From Oscillospiraceae bacterium (GTDB lineage: Bacteria; Bacillota; Clostridia; Oscillospirales; Oscillospiraceae): DNA of 52,973 nucleotides. The stretch spans positions 1 through 52,973 of the forward strand of contig JAAWDI010000007.1 of NCBI GenBank assembly GCA_022793685.1. The letters are read 5' to 3'. Below, one piece after another: positions 2,498 to 23,545 of the stretch; within the stretch, counting starts at the first letter, position 1, and every line of letters begins with the position of its first letter. The notes under the pieces were generated by a model. It saw only the letters and a list, made by a program, of their open reading frames with translations, was not told where the DNA came from and made no database searches. Both the position numbers and the translations under genes were made by a program.

Positions 2498-2541
2498 GTT
2501 ATTTCCCTCCTGGCGTCCGGAGAACGCCCTGTTGTCTTTTA

Positions 2542-2997
2542 TCAGATGGTTACATGGAGGCGCACCTGCGCCACGTCCTTTTTTTCAAGCGTGAGGCTTT
2601 CGCCGCCCACGGCCAGGGTAACGTCGCCGTTTTCATAACCGGCGAGCACCCCTATCAATTCTTTTTTACCTGCCATGGCGCGGTAGAGCTTTACGTCAAC
2701 TTCGCTGCCCAGAAAGGCGGAAAAGTGTTCCGGCTTTTTGAGTGCACGGTCCGCCCCGGCGGAGGATACCTCAAAGGTGTAACTGCCCTCGATGGGGTCG
2801 GCCTCGTCCAGCTTGTCGCTGACCACGCGGGAGATGGCTTCGCAATCGTTGATGGAAACGCCGCCCTCCTTGTCGATGTAGAGGCGAAGATACCAGGAAC
2901 CGGCCTCTTTGACATATTCCACGTCCCAGAGGGTGCAGCCGTGAGCCTCCACCTCCGGACGGGCCAGCGCCTGCGTGATTTCCGTCACTTTAGACAT
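2542..2997 (-). CDS. rimP: Ribosome maturation factor RimP
   Basis: 151 residues from ATG 2997 (MSKVTEITQ), preceded by GGAAGGGGG. An in-frame ATG at 3066 gives 23 extra residues without family similarity and lies in the mRNA leader. Family signatures: GCTLWDVEYVKEAGSWYLRLYIDKEGGVSINDC (split by eye into its two conserved blocks), the VSSAGADR motif and a C-terminal SH3-like domain. RimP assists 30S maturation. First gene of the nusA-infB operon, as usual. Confidence 0.94.
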   Translation of the reverse strand: MSKVTEITQALARPEVEAHGCTLWDVEYVKEAGSWYLRLYIDKEGGVSINDCEAISRVVSDKLDEADPIEGSYTFEVSSAGADRALKKPEHFSAFLGSEVDVKLYRAMAGKKELIGVLAGYENGDVTLAVGGESLTLEKKDVAQVRLHVTI

Positions 2998-3094
2998 GAC
3001 CGTCCCCCTTCCAAAAAATTCCTTGGTCGATTTTTTCAATAAGAAAGAGCGGAGGAAATCCCCCACTCCGTCAACTTACCATTCTTACACTGGA

Positions 3095-3123
3095 ATTATA
3101 GCACAGCTTTTCACGCAATGCAA
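3095..3123 (-). promoter_or_regulatory. Sigma-A promoter of the rimP-nusA-infB operon
   Basis: On the minus strand TTGCAT (3123-3118) and TATAAT (3100-3095) are separated by 17 nt, near consensus. It reads into rimP with a leader of roughly 90 nt that contains a CGGAG/CTCCG hairpin near 3050-3072. Confidence 0.8.
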
Positions 3124-3216
3124 GTGTTTTCAAAGATTTCCCACCTTAAAAAGCGGGGTGTCAGCGACGGGCGGGAAGGAATAGGATGACGCAGACGGGA
3201 AAAAGGAGGGAAGAGG

Positions 3217-3546
3217 ATGCAAAGAGAGGGACGGAACTGCCGCCGCGGCTGCTGCAATGCGGAGGCGCTTCTGGAAAGCGGCTGCGGCTGTGGCTGCAGA
3301 GAGAGCTTGGAAGAAGATATGCCTATGTGCCGTCATACAAACCCTATCTTTACCTGCGGGGATTGTTGTGATTGTGGCTGCAGTTGTGACTGCGGCTGTG
3401 GGGACAGTGAAGGGCTGGCGGCCATCTGTGCGGCGCTTCAGGAGCAGAACAGACTGCTTTCTGAGCTGGTATGCGGTATCACCGGACTGACCGGCGTGGC
3501 GCTTCACTGCTGCCGTGATTTGCAGAACGAAAACGACCGCCGCTGA
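3217..3546 (+). CDS. Cysteine-rich small protein, function unknown
   Basis: 109 residues with 19 cysteines, concentrated in three runs (CRRGCC, CGCGCR, CGDCCDCGCSCDCGCG), then a helix-like stretch (AICAALQEQNRLLSELV) and a final CC. ATG 3217 has an AGGAGG-type site. No signal peptide is visible. The pattern suggests metal binding or a cross-linked structural protein; a spore-coat role would suit a spore former but is only a guess. It stands alone, divergent from rimP and convergent with the CDF transporter, with a strong terminator just after the stop. Confidence 0.6.
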   Translation: MQREGRNCRRGCCNAEALLESGCGCGCRESLEEDMPMCRHTNPIFTCGDCCDCGCSCDCGCGDSEGLAAICAALQEQNRLLSELVCGITGLTGVALHCCRDLQNENDRR

Positions 3547-3571
3547 CAACAAGGTTTCGGTACAGCAAAGG

Positions 3572-3601
3572 AAAGAGGGACGCCGTACGGCGTCCCTCTT
3601 T
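3572..3601. terminator. Bidirectional intrinsic terminator
   Basis: Perfect 13-bp stem (AAAGAGGGACGCC and complement) around GTAC, with A-run before and T-run after. It serves the cysteine-rich gene on + and the CDF gene on -. Confidence 0.9.
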
Positions 3602-3607
3602 TGGCGT

Positions 3608-4792
3608 TTACCTGTCGTGGGGGAGGGGAGCGAAGCTCTCGTCCAGCGTGATGACGCAAAAATAGTCAGGGTAGCGCTCCGTCACCAGCTTACTGACCGC
3701 GGCTTTCAGCGCGCCGTCCTGCAGCGGGCAGCCGGATGGCACCACGCAGTCAAAAATGACGTTGGTGTGGGTGGGGCCGGGGACAATGCGCAGGTCATGG
3801 ATGGTCAAATCGGGATGAAGGGTGCGAACGGCCTCCGCAAGCCATGCGCGCAAATCGCTGGTGGCGCCGTCGGCCGTGACGATGGGGTCGAAGTGAATAA
3901 TCAGATGAAGGCCGGACTCGGTGAGGAAAGCCCGTTCAATATTGTCAATTACGTCATGGCTTTCCAGCACGTTTTCCTCTGCTGCCATTTCCACATGAAC
4001 GCTGGCGAACTGCCGGCCGGGGCCGTAATCGTGAATCATCAGGTCATGGGTGCCAAGCACGCCGGGATAGCTCAGAATTTTACGCTGGATGTCCTGCACC
4101 AGCGCAGGGTCTGGGGCCTTGCCCAGTAAGGGGTCTAACGTGTCCTTGATGAGGCCGAAGCCGCTGTACAGGATGAACAGAGCCACCGCGATGCCAATCC
4201 AGCCGTCCAGCTCCACCGCGGCAAAATGGGAGATAAGGGCGGCGGCCAACACCGCCAGCGTGCTGATAACGTCGTTCCGGCTGTCGGCGGCGGTGGCAAT
4301 GAGGGTTTTGGAGGAGATGGCCTTGCCCATGGCGCGGTTGAACAGCATCATCCACAGCTTAACCGCCACAGAGCAGAGCAGTACCGCCACGGTAAGCCAG
4401 CTGAACTCCACGGCTGACGGGTGCATGGCCCGCTGTATGCTGGAGCGGAGCAGCTCCAAGCCGATGATAAGGATGAGCAAAGAGACGGAAAGGCCGGAGA
4501 GGTATTCATACCGCCCGTGGCCGTAGGGGTGTTCCGCATCGGCGGGGCGGCTGGCCAGCTTAAAGCCCAGAAGGCTGATGACGCTGGACGATGCATCTGA
4601 CAGGTTGTTGACCGCGTCCGCCGTAATCGACACCGAGCCGGACAGCAGCCCGACGGTCAGCTTGCCGAAAAACAGCAGGACGTTGCAGGCCATTCCGATA
4701 AAGCTGCTGGCCTTGCCGCAGGCAGTGCGCAGTTGGGGGTCGGAGGTGGCGCTCTGGCCGTACAGCAGTTTGCGAACGAGCCACTTTGTCAT
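3608..4792 (-). CDS. Cation diffusion facilitator (CDF) metal transporter with two C-terminal cytoplasmic domains
   Basis: 394 residues. Six predicted membrane spans in the first ~215 residues include the metal-site motifs ITADAVNNLSDA (TM2) and ATAADSRNDVISTL (TM5), and EHPYGHGRYEYL between TM2 and TM3. These proteins exchange divalent metal (Zn, Fe, Mn, Cd) for protons. Most CDFs are ~300 residues. Here a normal dimerisation domain (~230-305) is followed by a second similar ferredoxin-like stretch (~315-390: WLAEAVRTLHPDLTIHDLRI...VITLDESF), so the tail looks duplicated. Metal cannot be assigned. Single gene, divergent from degV. Confidence 0.9.
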   Translation of the reverse strand: MTKWLVRKLLYGQSATSDPQLRTACGKASSFIGMACNVLLFFGKLTVGLLSGSVSITADAVNNLSDASSSVISLLGFKLASRPADAEHPYGHGRYEYLSGLSVSLLILIIGLELLRSSIQRAMHPSAVEFSWLTVAVLLCSVAVKLWMMLFNRAMGKAISSKTLIATAADSRNDVISTLAVLAAALISHFAAVELDGWIGIAVALFILYSGFGLIKDTLDPLLGKAPDPALVQDIQRKILSYPGVLGTHDLMIHDYGPGRQFASVHVEMAAEENVLESHDVIDNIERAFLTESGLHLIIHFDPIVTADGATSDLRAWLAEAVRTLHPDLTIHDLRIVPGPTHTNVIFDCVVPSGCPLQDGALKAAVSKLVTERYPDYFCVITLDESFAPLPHDR

Positions 4793-4818
4793 GCCGGTCT
4801 GCTCCTTTCGCTTTTTGA

Positions 4819-4848
4819 TTGACAGGGTATTGCAGGGTGGGATATAAT
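4819..4848 (+). promoter_or_regulatory. Sigma-A promoter for degV
   Basis: TTGACA at 4819-4824 and TATAAT at 4843-4848, 18 nt apart, followed by an ~90-nt leader to the degV ribosome binding site (AGAGGGGG at 4921-4928). Confidence 0.7.
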
Positions 4849-4938
4849 AATAAGACTATAAAGGGTCATATGGAAAGACATTGACATTTATTATATCGGT
4901 GCAAAAAAAGCCTGTCAAGAAGAGGGGGTGTGCGGCTC

Positions 4939-5799
4939 TTGAACCAGCAGAAAATTGCGATTTTGGCCGACTCGTGCGCGGACATTTCACCAGAGGTGCT
5001 TGCCGGGCGCAAGGAGGTTTTTGTGGTGCCGCTGAAAATCCTCTGTAAGGACGGGGAATTTTACGATGGCGTAGATATTTTCGCCCCAGACGTCTATGCC
5101 CGTCAGGCCAAGGGCGAGCTGCCCCGCACCTCTCTGCCGGACGGCGCCACAATGGAACGGACGCTGGACGAAATTGCCGCCCAAGGGTACGAAAAGGTGA
5201 TTGCGCTGATGCTCTCCGGCGGCCTTTCGGGAACGTATAATATGATGCGCATTTACGGAGAAGAACGCAAGGACCTGGATGTGCGGGTATATGATACACG
5301 AAACGGCAGTCTGGGCATCGGCATCATGGTTTATCAGCTTTTGTTGGATATGGACGCAGGCCTTGGCTGGGAGGAGCTGTTAAAGCGTGCGGAGCATTAT
5401 ATTGGCAACACCTTCCCATTCTTTTCGGTGGATACGCTGGAATTTCTGCAAAAGGGCGGCCGTATCGGTCGGGTGACCGCCTTGGCGGGCACAATGCTTC
5501 AAATCAAGCCCATTATTATTTTTGACCATGACGGCCAGTTGAAGAGTACGGCTAAGGTGCGGGGGCGGCGGCAGCTTATTGACCGGTTTGTGGAGTTGGT
5601 GAAGCAAAAAGTGGGCAGCCATGCCAGGTACAACATCGCGGTGGCCCATGGCGGGGCTTTTGAGGCAATGCAGGAGCTGGGCGAAAAGCTGAAGCAGGCG
5701 TTGCCAAACTACATTCATTATTGGGAGGGGGAGCTGGACGCAACTCTCAGCACCTACATCGGTTCCGGTGTTCTGGGTGCAGGCGTGCAGCTCCTTTAA
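4939..5799 (+). CDS. DegV family (fatty-acid binding) protein
   Basis: 286 residues from TTG 4939, which has AGAGGGGG ten bases upstream; a GTG at 4930 (three residues longer) is almost on top of that site and less likely. Family signatures: IAILADSCADIS at the N-terminus, PRTSLPDGATM, LMLSGGLSGTYNM, and FSVDTLEFLQKGGRIG. DegV/FakB proteins bind a fatty acid; FakB types present it to the kinase FakA for phosphorylation. No fakA is nearby, so the partner is not known. It reads straight into the DUF4180 gene (12 nt gap). Confidence 0.9.
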   Translation: MNQQKIAILADSCADISPEVLAGRKEVFVVPLKILCKDGEFYDGVDIFAPDVYARQAKGELPRTSLPDGATMERTLDEIAAQGYEKVIALMLSGGLSGTYNMMRIYGEERKDLDVRVYDTRNGSLGIGIMVYQLLLDMDAGLGWEELLKRAEHYIGNTFPFFSVDTLEFLQKGGRIGRVTALAGTMLQIKPIIIFDHDGQLKSTAKVRGRRQLIDRFVELVKQKVGSHARYNIAVAHGGAFEAMQELGEKLKQALPNYIHYWEGELDATLSTYIGSGVLGAGVQLL

Positions 5800-12179: not shown

Positions 12180-13571
12180 ATGTTGACTTATGTGCTGTCA
12201 CGGCGGGGCAGTCTGCCTGCCTATGATTATTTGTACCGCTGTATTCGGAGGGATATTCTCGCCGGACGGCTTAAAACAGGAGAGAAGCTGCCGTCTAAGC
12301 GGGCGCTGGCGGGAGAACTGGGCGTATGCGTTGCTACGGTGGAGAACGCCTATGCCCAACTGGCAGCGGAGGGCTATATACGCACCAAGGAACGCAGCGG
12401 ATATTTTGTGCTGCCCGTCATGGAGCAGAGAAACGCACCGGCGGAGCAGCCGCGCCAAGGGGAGGGGGAGCCGTGCGAGCGGGCGTGGCTTTTGGATTTT
12501 AAGGCCAACCATGTGGAACAGGGCAAATTCCCTTTTACGGTGTGGGCGCGGCTCATGCGGCAGGTGCTGTCGGAGGAGGACAAAGAGCTGCTGCGGCCCT
12601 GCCCGCCCGGAGGCGTGTACGCCCTCCGCACCGCGTTGGCGGACTACCTCTACCGTGCGCGGGGGCTTTCCGTGCTGCCGGAGCAGATTGTGGTGGGCGC
12701 CGGAACGGAATATCTCTACACCCTGATGGTGCAATTGTTGGGTCGGGAGAAAATTTACGGCGTGGAGGACCCCGGCTATGACAAGGTGGCCCGCATTTAC
12801 CGCGCAAACGGCGCACAGGTGCGCTATCTGGGGGTGGACGGGGGAGGCATGGTGTGCGCGGAGGCAGAGGAAAGCGGCGCGGAGGTGCTCCACCTGTCTC
12901 CCGGACACCACTTCCCCACGGGCGTAGTGATGCCGGTGGGGCGGCGGCAGGAATTGCTCCGCTGGGCGGAGGAGGATGGCGGGCGCGCCATCATCGAGGA
13001 CGACTATGACAGCGAATTCCGCCTCTCCGGACGGCCTATCCCCACATTACAGGGGTTAGACCATACCGGGCGGGTGCTGTACGTCAACACCTTTTCTAAA
13101 ACCCTGTCCCCTGCTTTTCGTATCAGCTATATGGTGCTGCCGCCCGCCTTGGCGGAGCGGTACAGGGACAAGCTGGGCTTTTATGCCTGCACAGTGTCCA
13201 GCTTGGAGCAGTACACCTTGGCGCGGTTTATCTCCGGCGGCTACTTTGAGCGGCACATCAGCCGCATGAAGACCTTTTACCGTGCCAAGCGGGATGCGGT
13301 GGCGGCGGCCATTGAAGAAAGCCCTCTAGGCGGGCGCTCTCAAATTTTGGCGGCGGACGCGGGACTTCATTTCCTGCTGGAGCTGGACACAGACCTCGAA
13401 GATGAGGAGCTGGAGCGCAGGGCGGCGGATGCGGGGGTGCGGCTGAGCTGTCTGTCAAGCTATGTAAACGGAAACCACCCGGTGCAAACGCATCGGGTGG
13501 TGGTAAACTACTCCGGTCTTGACCCTGAGAAATTGCCTGAAGGCCTTGACAGGCTGGCGGCCCTTATGTGA
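12180..13571 (+). CDS. MocR/GntR-type regulator with aminotransferase domain, PdxR-like
   Basis: 463 residues. N-terminal GntR winged helix (YRCIRRDILAGRLKTGEKLPS, SKRALAGELGVCVATVENAY) joined to a fold-type I aminotransferase domain with a PLP-lysine motif NTFSKTLSPAFRIS and EDDYDSEFR. MocR regulators of the PdxR group sense PLP and control its synthesis or uptake. Divergence from an ECF S-component fits that job. The ATG at 12180 has GAAGGGAAACC upstream. The gene overlaps the convergent rubrerythrin by 8 nt. Confidence 0.88.
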   Translation: MLTYVLSRRGSLPAYDYLYRCIRRDILAGRLKTGEKLPSKRALAGELGVCVATVENAYAQLAAEGYIRTKERSGYFVLPVMEQRNAPAEQPRQGEGEPCERAWLLDFKANHVEQGKFPFTVWARLMRQVLSEEDKELLRPCPPGGVYALRTALADYLYRARGLSVLPEQIVVGAGTEYLYTLMVQLLGREKIYGVEDPGYDKVARIYRANGAQVRYLGVDGGGMVCAEAEESGAEVLHLSPGHHFPTGVVMPVGRRQELLRWAEEDGGRAIIEDDYDSEFRLSGRPIPTLQGLDHTGRVLYVNTFSKTLSPAFRISYMVLPPALAERYRDKLGFYACTVSSLEQYTLARFISGGYFERHISRMKTFYRAKRDAVAAAIEESPLGGRSQILAADAGLHFLLELDTDLEDEELERRAADAGVRLSCLSSYVNGNHPVQTHRVVVNYSGLDPEKLPEGLDRLAALM

Positions 13572-14175
13572 AGGGAACCTCGCTCAGGCGGATATAGAAG
13601 CCCTGATTGTGTTTGCACAGGGGGCAGGCCTTGGGCGCGTCCTTGCCGGATAGGATGTGGCCGCAGTTGAGGCACATCCATTCCACCGGCGCGTCGGCGG
13701 AGAACAGAGCGCCGCTTTCCAGCCGGTCGGCAAAGGCGCCGAAACGGTCGCCGTGAACTTTTTCCACCTTGGCCACCATGTTGAACAGGGAGGCAACGTT
13801 GGCAAAGCCTTCCTCTTTGGCCACATTGGCAAAGCCGGCGTAGTCCACCTCCCACTCCTGGTATTCATTATGCTGGGCAGCGCGGAGCAGGGGCAGTACC
13901 TCATCGGAAATATCGACCGGATAGGTGCCGTCCACCGTGATGGTCTTGCCCGCCACCGGCTGGAGCAAATCCCAAAACGCCTTGGCGTGGGCGCGTTCCT
14001 GTTCGGCGGTGAACTCGAATACCTGAGAAACGACATACAGCTCTTTTTTACGCGCGAGAGACGAGGCGAACAGATAGCGGTTGCGTGCCTGACTTTCTCC
14101 GGCGAAGGCGCGCATCAGATTTTCACAGGTTTTGCTGTTTTCAAAAAGAATAGCCAAAGCGGATACCCTCCCCAT
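13564..14175 (-). CDS. rbr: Rubrerythrin
   Basis: 203 residues. Four-helix di-iron domain with the carboxylate/His motifs GESQARNRY, EQERAHAKAF, HNEYQEWEVDYAGFA and VEKVHGDRF, then a C-terminal rubredoxin-like centre with CLNCG and CPLCK. It reduces peroxide in anaerobes using electrons from reduced rubredoxin or NADH oxidoreductases. The start is taken at 14175; an ATG-less alternative further in would trim the unusual MGRVSALAIL leader. Single gene between pdxR and pncB. Confidence 0.93.
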   Translation of the reverse strand: MGRVSALAILFENSKTCENLMRAFAGESQARNRYLFASSLARKKELYVVSQVFEFTAEQERAHAKAFWDLLQPVAGKTITVDGTYPVDISDEVLPLLRAAQHNEYQEWEVDYAGFANVAKEEGFANVASLFNMVAKVEKVHGDRFGAFADRLESGALFSADAPVEWMCLNCGHILSGKDAPKACPLCKHNQGFYIRLSEVPFT

Positions 14176-14228
14176 GATTGATGGGAACAGTATCCGCTGA
14201 AGCGCCGTATTTTATGCACCGGACAGGA

Positions 14229-22169: not shown

Positions 22170-22946
22170 ATGATTGTCGTTCTTGTTCTGCTCGTTGTTG
22201 CCGTCCTCGTCTTTGACCTCAAGACCCGGAAATACCTCAACCCCTACAAGCTCTATCTTGTTTTCGGCAAGAAAGGCTCCGGTAAAAGCACCTACCTTGT
22301 CAAGCTGGCCAAAAAGCACCTGAAAAAGCACTGGCTTGTCTACACCAATATGGACGAGCTTTTCATCCCCGGCGTCCGGCATTTCAACGTCCAGCATTTG
22401 GGTGATTACGTCCCGGAGGCGCATAGTCTCCTCCTGCTGGATGAAGTGGGCATGATTTGGGACAATCGGGATTACAAGGTGTTTAAGCCTGCCGTCCGTG
22501 ACTTTTTCAAGCTCCAGCGTCATTACAAGGTCAAGGTCTATATGGCCTCCCAGAGCTTCGACGTGGATAAGAAGCTCCGCGACCTCTGCGACGGAATGTA
22601 TCTCCACACCAACTTTGCCCGTGTGTTTACCCTCGGTAAGCGCATTACCCGCAAGATTACCATTACCGCCAGTACCAGCGAGGCGGAGAGCCGCATTGCC
22701 CAAGACCTGAAAATATGTCCGCCGTGGGAGTGGACGCTCACCTATATCCCGCGCTGGGCAAAGTGCTTTGATAGTCATACTATCCCCGATATGCCGAAGC
22801 TGGAGTATAGCGAGGATGCGGAGGGTGCAGAACCAGAGGATGTAGAGATGGATGCAGATGCTCCGGCTCCGGTAGACCTCTCCGACTACTTCGGCCACTC
22901 GCAGGAGGATTATGACGCGCTGGAAGGTGGTGATGATAATGAATGA
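22170..22946 (+). CDS. zot: Zot/pI-type phage assembly ATPase
   Basis: 258 residues. N-terminal membrane span (MIVVLVLLVVAVLVF), Walker A GKKGSGKST (~33-41), Walker B SLLLLDEVG (~86-94), then NRDYKVFKPAVRDFFKLQRH and YMASQSFDVDKKLRDLC typical of Zot. The C-terminal ~50 residues are very acidic. Filamentous pI/Zot proteins drive coat-protein assembly and extrusion through the inner membrane. In most, the span is C-terminal to the ATPase domain; here it is at the N-terminus. Ribosome site AGGAGG. Confidence 0.9.
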   Translation: MIVVLVLLVVAVLVFDLKTRKYLNPYKLYLVFGKKGSGKSTYLVKLAKKHLKKHWLVYTNMDELFIPGVRHFNVQHLGDYVPEAHSLLLLDEVGMIWDNRDYKVFKPAVRDFFKLQRHYKVKVYMASQSFDVDKKLRDLCDGMYLHTNFARVFTLGKRITRKITITASTSEAESRIAQDLKICPPWEWTLTYIPRWAKCFDSHTIPDMPKLEYSEDAEGAEPEDVEMDADAPAPVDLSDYFGHSQEDYDALEGGDDNE

Positions 22947-23223: not shown

Positions 23224-23493
23224 TCAATTTATTTCTTCATCTAATTCCCATAGTAACGTAAATGCTTCGTGTCCTATTCGTAGTGCGTCACTTTTGTAAT
23301 TATTTTCTCCCCCCAAGTCTGTTGGATTTCGTAATGATAGTGTAATTAGTTCAGCTTGTTTTTCCGTTATTTGGGCTGTGCAAAATTGGATTTTTGTCTG
23401 CTTCCTCATTTCCACGGTATGGAGCGTAACGCCTGCGATATTGGTCGCAAGAATGGCGCAGAGTATAATAACGACTGCTTTCGGTGTTTTCAT
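23224..23493 (-). CDS. Small membrane-anchored protein, antisense accessory gene
   Basis: 89 residues from ATG 23493 with AGGAGG seven bases upstream; ATG 23499 and 23544 are less well placed. An N-terminal anchor or signal (KTPKAVVIILCAILATNIAG) is followed by a polar exported-looking part with DLGGENNYKSDALRIG. No family recognised. AT-rich, preceded by palindromic element A'. Confidence 0.6.
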   Translation of the reverse strand: MKTPKAVVIILCAILATNIAGVTLHTVEMRKQTKIQFCTAQITEKQAELITLSLRNPTDLGGENNYKSDALRIGHEAFTLLWELDEEIN

Positions 23494-23545
23494 GTCCATT
23501 CCTCCTTTTTTCTCCATTGTATGGTGTGGCGCTGCCTTTGTCAAT

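Follow-up and report, generated by a model that had tools for sequence, protein, structure and literature searches.

The window analysed here, a stretch of 52,973 nucleotides that corresponds to contig C26 of an Oscillospiraceae genome assembly (1.67 Mb, 73% complete), carries a gene that probably encodes a spore coat or exosporium protein, which would be controlled by sigma-K, oligomerised through a helix and cross-linked through its cysteine-rich part. We observed a real gene with relatives, a locus that is conserved in these relatives and a common type of promoter; a cysteine-rich part modelled at low confidence and a single C-terminal helix are predicted for the protein.

A cysteine-rich protein and its relatives

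The cysteine-rich open reading frame lies at 3217..3546 on the forward strand (stop codon included), starts with ATG and is preceded by a Shine-Dalgarno sequence, AAGGAGG, that can be read from the window sequence at 3203..3209 on the same strand. Its translation bears out the count made in an earlier note on this DNA, with 19 cysteines in 109 residues, and contains the string CDCGCSCDCGCG and, altogether, seven CxC, two CxxC and three CC patterns. Six of the cysteines are located in an N-terminal region (residues 8-27, 3238..3297), which is followed by the motif EEDMPMCRHTNPI that is conserved in our alignments A1 and A2 (residues 32-44, 3310..3348), by the cysteine cluster CGDCCDCGCSCDCGC in a linker where cysteines recur in relatives (residues 47-61, 3355..3399) and by a predicted C-terminal helix, delimited from an AlphaFold model, the alignment and a heptad count, with hydrophobic residues at heptad positions a and d and a near-invariant Gln (residues 61-108, 3397..3540), all on the forward strand.

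As in coat and exosporium structural proteins, this cysteine content is far above that of other proteins, since the 33 frames of at least 250 aa in the window contain on average 1.6% cysteine; with these long frames as background, the binomial chance of finding at least 19 cysteines in 109 residues is ~2e-14. In 20,000 mononucleotide shuffles of the ORF, the number of encoded cysteines never reached 19 (maximum 12), and the densest 60-residue stretch among the 454 stop-to-stop frames of at least 60 codons was that of the same ORF (15 cysteines, against 11 for the next one). These statistics, together with the ribosome-binding site and with the relatives and promoter described below, rule out a chance ORF, and an RNA feature was also ruled out, as the three Rfam matches within 2500..5000 were all far below their gathering scores. 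The cysteine-coding stretches contain imperfect 21-nt direct repeats, so that slippage may account for the growth of part of the cluster.

The earlier note had called the protein an orphan and had named a lack of homologues as what would refute its reading, but relatives were found in our sample of the same taxonomic family. An initial search with the single sequence in 200 genomes of this family, at E values up to 1, gave mostly chance matches and several true relatives; 29 loci from this search were read and most were judged to be chance matches, the true relatives being recognised by the motif E/D-E/D-x-P-M-x-R-Y/H and by a common C-terminal stretch. A six-sequence profile then matched 57 of 400 genomes of the taxonomic family at E <=0.01, that is 56 genomes besides its own, in 20 of 106 genera, the source genome being the sole one of its genus in the genome set searched. 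A 25-sequence profile matched 9 of 394 genomes sampled in the order (its own included), all of them in its own family, and a single one of 391 genomes sampled in the class, which was its own. Within the genomes sampled, the protein's family thus appears to be found in one bacterial family only. A scan of genome contigs with the single window protein gave no relative (89 pattern matches), and the same scan with alignment A1 gave two records, both from Oscillospiraceae, one of which (L062), having the same length and protein, appears to be the contig already matched as G046. In viral contigs, the family profile confirmed none of 41 pattern matches as a relative, and a phage origin was rejected.

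We read 50 members of the family: 48 from the 57 profile-positive genomes, one from the contig scan (L063) and one from the order sample (G081). G390 was excluded, the start of its gene coinciding with the end of a contig, and eight weak matches are not among the members read (G028, G068, G121, G250, G284, G319, G356 and G393). The start codons of weak members, above all that of L167, were chosen by us. Members are 60-126 aa long and share a layout in which a motif resembling EEPMxRYxHPIP lies in the middle and is followed by a variable linker, frequently with cysteines, and by a C-terminal helix with hydrophobic heptads; four of them, including the window protein, have the variant PMCR. As the earlier note had stated, no known family is recognisable: the window protein matched none in Pfam or NCBIfam up to E 10, and the 25 aligned members gave weak matches only, each to one member. 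The sequence family is therefore without a name in either library, and the function and kind of protein proposed here, that of cysteine-rich spore-envelope proteins, are familiar.

The 19 cysteines of the window protein are the highest number among the 50 members, the 49 relatives having 0-10 (median 3) and two of them none. Cysteines were located in the N-terminal part of 37 members and in the linker of 34 according to a rough split into N-terminal part, linker and helix, which failed for four members and was misplaced in several. Any CC, CxC or CxxC was found in 18 of the 50, and CxC clusters are also present in L055, L149, L162 and L165. One linker cysteine is invariant in a 6-member alignment and at least 90% conserved in a 13-member one, but not conserved in the 25-member alignment, where the invariant or near-invariant residues are Gln, Leu, Met, Arg and Asn of the motif and helix, with no cysteine among them. 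Since most relatives are this poor in cysteines, disulfide cross-linking cannot be the core function of the family as a whole. In L162 and L165 (9 and 10 cysteines), the same linker carries another type of cluster, CxCxxCxCxxCxC, apparently from an independent enrichment.

The C-terminal half, which the earlier note had described as helix-like, was modelled by AlphaFold (25 sequences) as a single helix spanning residues 61-108, with a block pLDDT of 81 for residues 61-70 and of 97-99 from residue 71, while the part before the helix was of low confidence (block pLDDT 52-67; 74.9 on average for the whole protein, pTM 0.43). A second member gave a similar C-terminal helix (63-100) and an N-terminal helix (9-35), with a mean pLDDT of 79.5 and a pTM of 0.38. 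When heptads were counted in 47 of the 50 members, strongly hydrophobic residues occupied 84% of a and 71% of d positions, compared to 20, 0 and 1% of b, c and f and 39 and 35% of e and g positions, in a count that leans towards a coiled-coil result because its windows were fitted to a consensus; a Gln was found at one d position in nearly all members counted. We infer from this pattern that the helix forms a coiled coil, of which a single predicted helix with a pTM of 0.43 is no proof. The only match in a profile search of the PDB (E 0.78) was not meaningful.

Promoters of the sigma-K type

In most members, the sequence GCATARNATGG is found just upstream of the ribosome-binding site. More generally, a CATAnnAT-like -10 element is located 22-65 nt before the start codon in 48 of the 50 upstream regions, with C as its first base in 46 and A in 2; that of L034 (CATATTTT) may be a chance occurrence, and L161 and L166 have no such element. 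Upstream of these 48 elements, a C is found at -18 in 36 cases and AC exactly at -19/-18 in 19, while the sigma-E triplet ATA at -19..-17 is found in none. Both features expected of sigma-K promoters, a CATAnnnT-type -10 and a C replacing the T of sigma-E at -35, were thus seen across the family. The strict form CATAnnAT was present 22-65 nt upstream of 45 of the 50 family genes, compared to 5 of 168 other ORFs of the same loci preceded by a Shine-Dalgarno sequence (Fisher P ~4e-35, which is not a true probability because the sequences are related). For comparison, we looked at spoIVA, which we take to be a sigma-E gene, in other genomes of the bacterial family: ATA was present at one site in each of six loci (seven sites in total, the seventh being without it). 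These six, none of which comes from a genome carrying the family gene, passed a scoring filter among the 27 upstream regions extracted from 30 loci, the rest being read by eye.

For the gene in the window, the -10 element AATAGGAT lies at 3180..3187 on the forward strand and deviates from the family consensus CATARNAT at its first base (AATA instead of CATA), and the -35 region lies at 3159..3163 on the same strand, with a C at 3162, corresponding to -18 relative to the first -10 base, and a T at -19 where the AC motif has A. When scored with a matrix built from the 47 other members, this site ranked second of 105,876 positions on both strands, with 12.9 bits compared to a mean of 20.4 for the members. 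The gene may be under a putative sigma-K promoter, within a family whose promoters mostly have the C at -35 by which sigma-K sites differ from those of sigma-E.

Among the sporulation sigma factors of the genome, SigE and SigG both score above a curated cut-off, SigK scores above the cut-off of PRK05803 and below that of TIGR02846, and another factor has SigF as its best match, below cut-off. The residue before SYISR is Gln in its SigE and Arg in its SigK, so that a SigK with the -35-reading Arg is present. These sigma factors, and the promoter type that is common to the family, speak for the earlier proposal that the protein could be part of the coat of a spore former. spoIVA was not found in the source genome, of which 73% is covered, and 170 of the 200 genomes sampled in the bacterial family carry it: 26 of 29 carriers of the gene and 144 of 171 others, with no tracking beyond background, in a comparison without power since most of the bacterial family carries spoIVA.

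The pattern ACM-N15-GCATARNATRG was found at 16 sites in four genomes, compared to 2 for the reversed pattern, and none of the 16 is the own promoter of the four family genes in these genomes. The genes behind them encode a collagen-like protein (a match below the Pfam cut-off), a 1-Cys peroxiredoxin, an Mntp-type membrane protein, DUF2935, DUF4397, DUF6774, a cupin, a CDF transporter and two proteins that we read as MurA; one aspartokinase-like gene has no clear ribosome-binding site, and 5 of the 16 sites have an unknown gene or no convincing gene behind them. In C. difficile, the sigma-K regulon includes collagen-like exosporium genes and a peroxiredoxin/chitinase coat gene (PMC3789822).

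Several sites of the sigma-K type deserve mention on their own. The CDF cation-efflux gene lies behind a sigma-K-like site in another genome (L136, genome G077). A MurA-like gene does so in two genomes (L141 and L143), including that of the window, hinting at a sporulation copy of MurA. In the window, the site ranked first, at 14216 on the reverse strand, precedes a gene read as rubrerythrin-like (13564..14175, reverse strand), so that a second sporulation-controlled gene may be present. The third-best site precedes a small ORF beside a gene that we read as a Zot-like ATPase (22170..22946, forward, and 23224..23544, reverse, for the pair), which suggests a filamentous-phage-type prophage.

A locus conserved in the relatives

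The CDF metal transporter gene pointed out in the earlier note does adjoin the gene, at 3608..4792 on the reverse strand, but it is convergent, and a terminator-like hairpin at 3572..3601 lies between the two (called on the reverse strand, a short T run following it on the forward strand as well). The CDF protein of the window had no match in 22 plus 20 loci of relatives, with flanks of at most ~8 kb. Given this orientation and this lack of matches, the idea of a metal store beside a metal transporter is weakly placed.

The neighbours that are conserved are others: in 40 of 41 relatives with a wider context, the gene is accompanied by an ABC-transporter operon in divergent orientation, by a LytR-CpsA-Psr (LCP) gene that comes after it, or by both, as named from Pfam scans of one example each, the exception being L066, on a 5.6-kb contig. 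Among a first set of 21 relatives, 20 have the gene in divergent orientation to an operon encoding a substrate-binding protein, a permease and an ATPase; a Crp-type regulator was matched in 12 of these 20 loci, and the LCP gene follows on the same strand in 17. Another 20 weaker relatives all keep at least one of the neighbours, with the binding protein in 13 and the LCP gene in 13 (the LCP match of L165 is weak), which supports these weak matches as true members. In the region upstream of the gene, on the side of the divergent operon, a palindrome near TGTCTCATTTGAGACA was seen in L040, L057, L058, L061 and L063 and is perhaps a site of the Crp-type regulator there. An operon with the LCP gene was judged unlikely considering the gaps and the separate sigma-A-like promoter that was read by eye in most of 30 loci, where some start choices, such as that of L167, are off.

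Neither the binding protein nor an LCP gene was matched in the window, whose generic ATPase and weak Crp-type matches are all distant from the gene; the gene itself adjoins rimP-nusA-rnpM-L7Ae. In L063 and L070, the ABC operon separates this block, found a few kb upstream, from the family gene, so that the operon was probably lost or moved in the window genome.

Proposed role and known systems

In the model that we favour, the protein would be produced late in the mother cell under sigma-K, its helix would hold it together as an oligomeric coiled coil, and its PM-x-RY-x-HPIP motif might anchor it to a different protein of the envelope. After assembly of the layer, cysteines of the N-terminal part and linker could form inter-chain disulfides, making the layer resistant and insoluble; in the species of the window, expansion of the linker into a dense CxC cluster would provide more cross-links per chain. 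For the hardening step, we infer by analogy with CsxA, CdeC/CdeM and ExsY/CotY. Extending this model to the whole family is tentative and more doubtful than not: the family, so far without a name, would be specific to the Oscillospiraceae lineage and would serve late in the spore envelope as a coiled-coil scaffold whose cysteine part can be tuned. Through expansion of a short CxC repeat, lineages would set how many cross-links are formed or how many metal ions are bound. The species of the window would be the extreme case, and its outer layer, hardened by redox chemistry or by metal, may be of a kind not seen in model spore formers.

A sporulation-specific metal-binding protein, whose CxC clusters would bind zinc or another soft metal for storage in the spore envelope or for protection of the mother cell, seems unlikely to us considering that nothing in Pfam or NCBIfam was matched up to E 10, that the number and spacing of cysteines vary, with CC, CxC or CxxC in the 18 members only, and that the CDF neighbour is convergent and not found at the loci of relatives; such a role would nevertheless fit the CxC, CxxC and CC patterns of the window protein, the recurrence of CxC clusters in the four members named above, the adjoining CDF gene and the one behind a sigma-K-like site in L136. 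Another reading is that of a morphogenetic adaptor in the envelope that works through its helix and motif, its extra cysteines being low complexity that grew by slippage and is nearly neutral in this lineage. It would account for the conserved residues without any cysteine in the 25-member alignment, for the 21-nt repeats and for the low median of the relatives, but the linker cysteine conserved in the two smaller alignments, the presence of cysteines in the N-terminal part and linker of so many members and the enrichment of the same linker in other members make it slightly less likely still.

What we consider very improbable is that the protein acts in vegetative cells, as a regulator or in stress, in connection with the ABC operon and LCP gene, and not as a spore component: the synteny in 40 of 41 relatives speaks for it, yet the LCP gene mostly seems to have its own sigma-A-like promoter, the ABC operon is divergent, no such binding-protein or LCP gene was found in the window, and the sporulation-type -10 precedes most family genes but few of the other ORFs in their loci.

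Little was found in print on Oscillospiraceae spore envelopes in the open-licence literature, though most sampled genomes carry spoIVA, and none of the matches listed for Oscillospiraceae or Ruminococcaceae spore coats and cysteine-rich proteins, seen by title and abstract start, concerns this family, which offers a spore-envelope candidate characterised by its promoter type, its motif and a locus kept in the relatives.

Metallothioneins are small proteins with dense CxC clusters, and both Pfam and NCBIfam include metallothionein profiles; Pfam also includes a CotZ-type profile and DUF1540. The window protein is similarly small and has similarly dense CxC clusters, but it differs from metallothioneins by its long helical C-terminal part, by the absence of a match to any family of the two libraries up to E 10 and by the variable cysteines of its relatives, among which neither number nor spacing is kept and at most one linker cysteine is conserved, in small alignments. 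No Pfam family up to E 10 also means no CotY/CotZ/ExsY profile and no DUF1540 domain, which in CdeA has four conserved cysteines according to the passage describing it (PMC7677010). CotY, CotZ and ExsY of Bacillus are described as cysteine-rich proteins of outer spore layers (PMC6101409, PMC7333573), as we propose for the window protein, which, compared by profile, differs from them in matching no Pfam family.

Closer in kind are CdeM and CdeC of the C. difficile exosporium, which, as described in the relevant passages of PMC6101409 and PMC7677010, are also cysteine-rich proteins of a spore-forming clostridium, with clustered cysteines, and form multimers on expression. CdeM, like the window protein, has no conserved domain reported in these passages, but it is longer (161 aa), contains 8.7% cysteine and has described repeats; compared by description only, neither protein is mentioned there with a motif or helix like that of the window family. 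CsxA of C. sporogenes, also compared by description only, is cysteine-rich as well, with 25 cysteines, and forms a hexagonal lattice by microscopy (PMC7333573), whereas the window protein is known from sequence alone. The authors of the CsxA study proposed that self-assembly combined with cross-linking by disulfides is a strategy which unrelated cysteine-rich spore proteins use in general (PMC7333573), and such unrelated proteins are described as building disulfide-linked spore layers elsewhere (PMC7333573, PMC7677010, PMC6101409). The window protein is possibly a further case for this proposal that spores are repeatedly hardened in this manner (PMC7333573).
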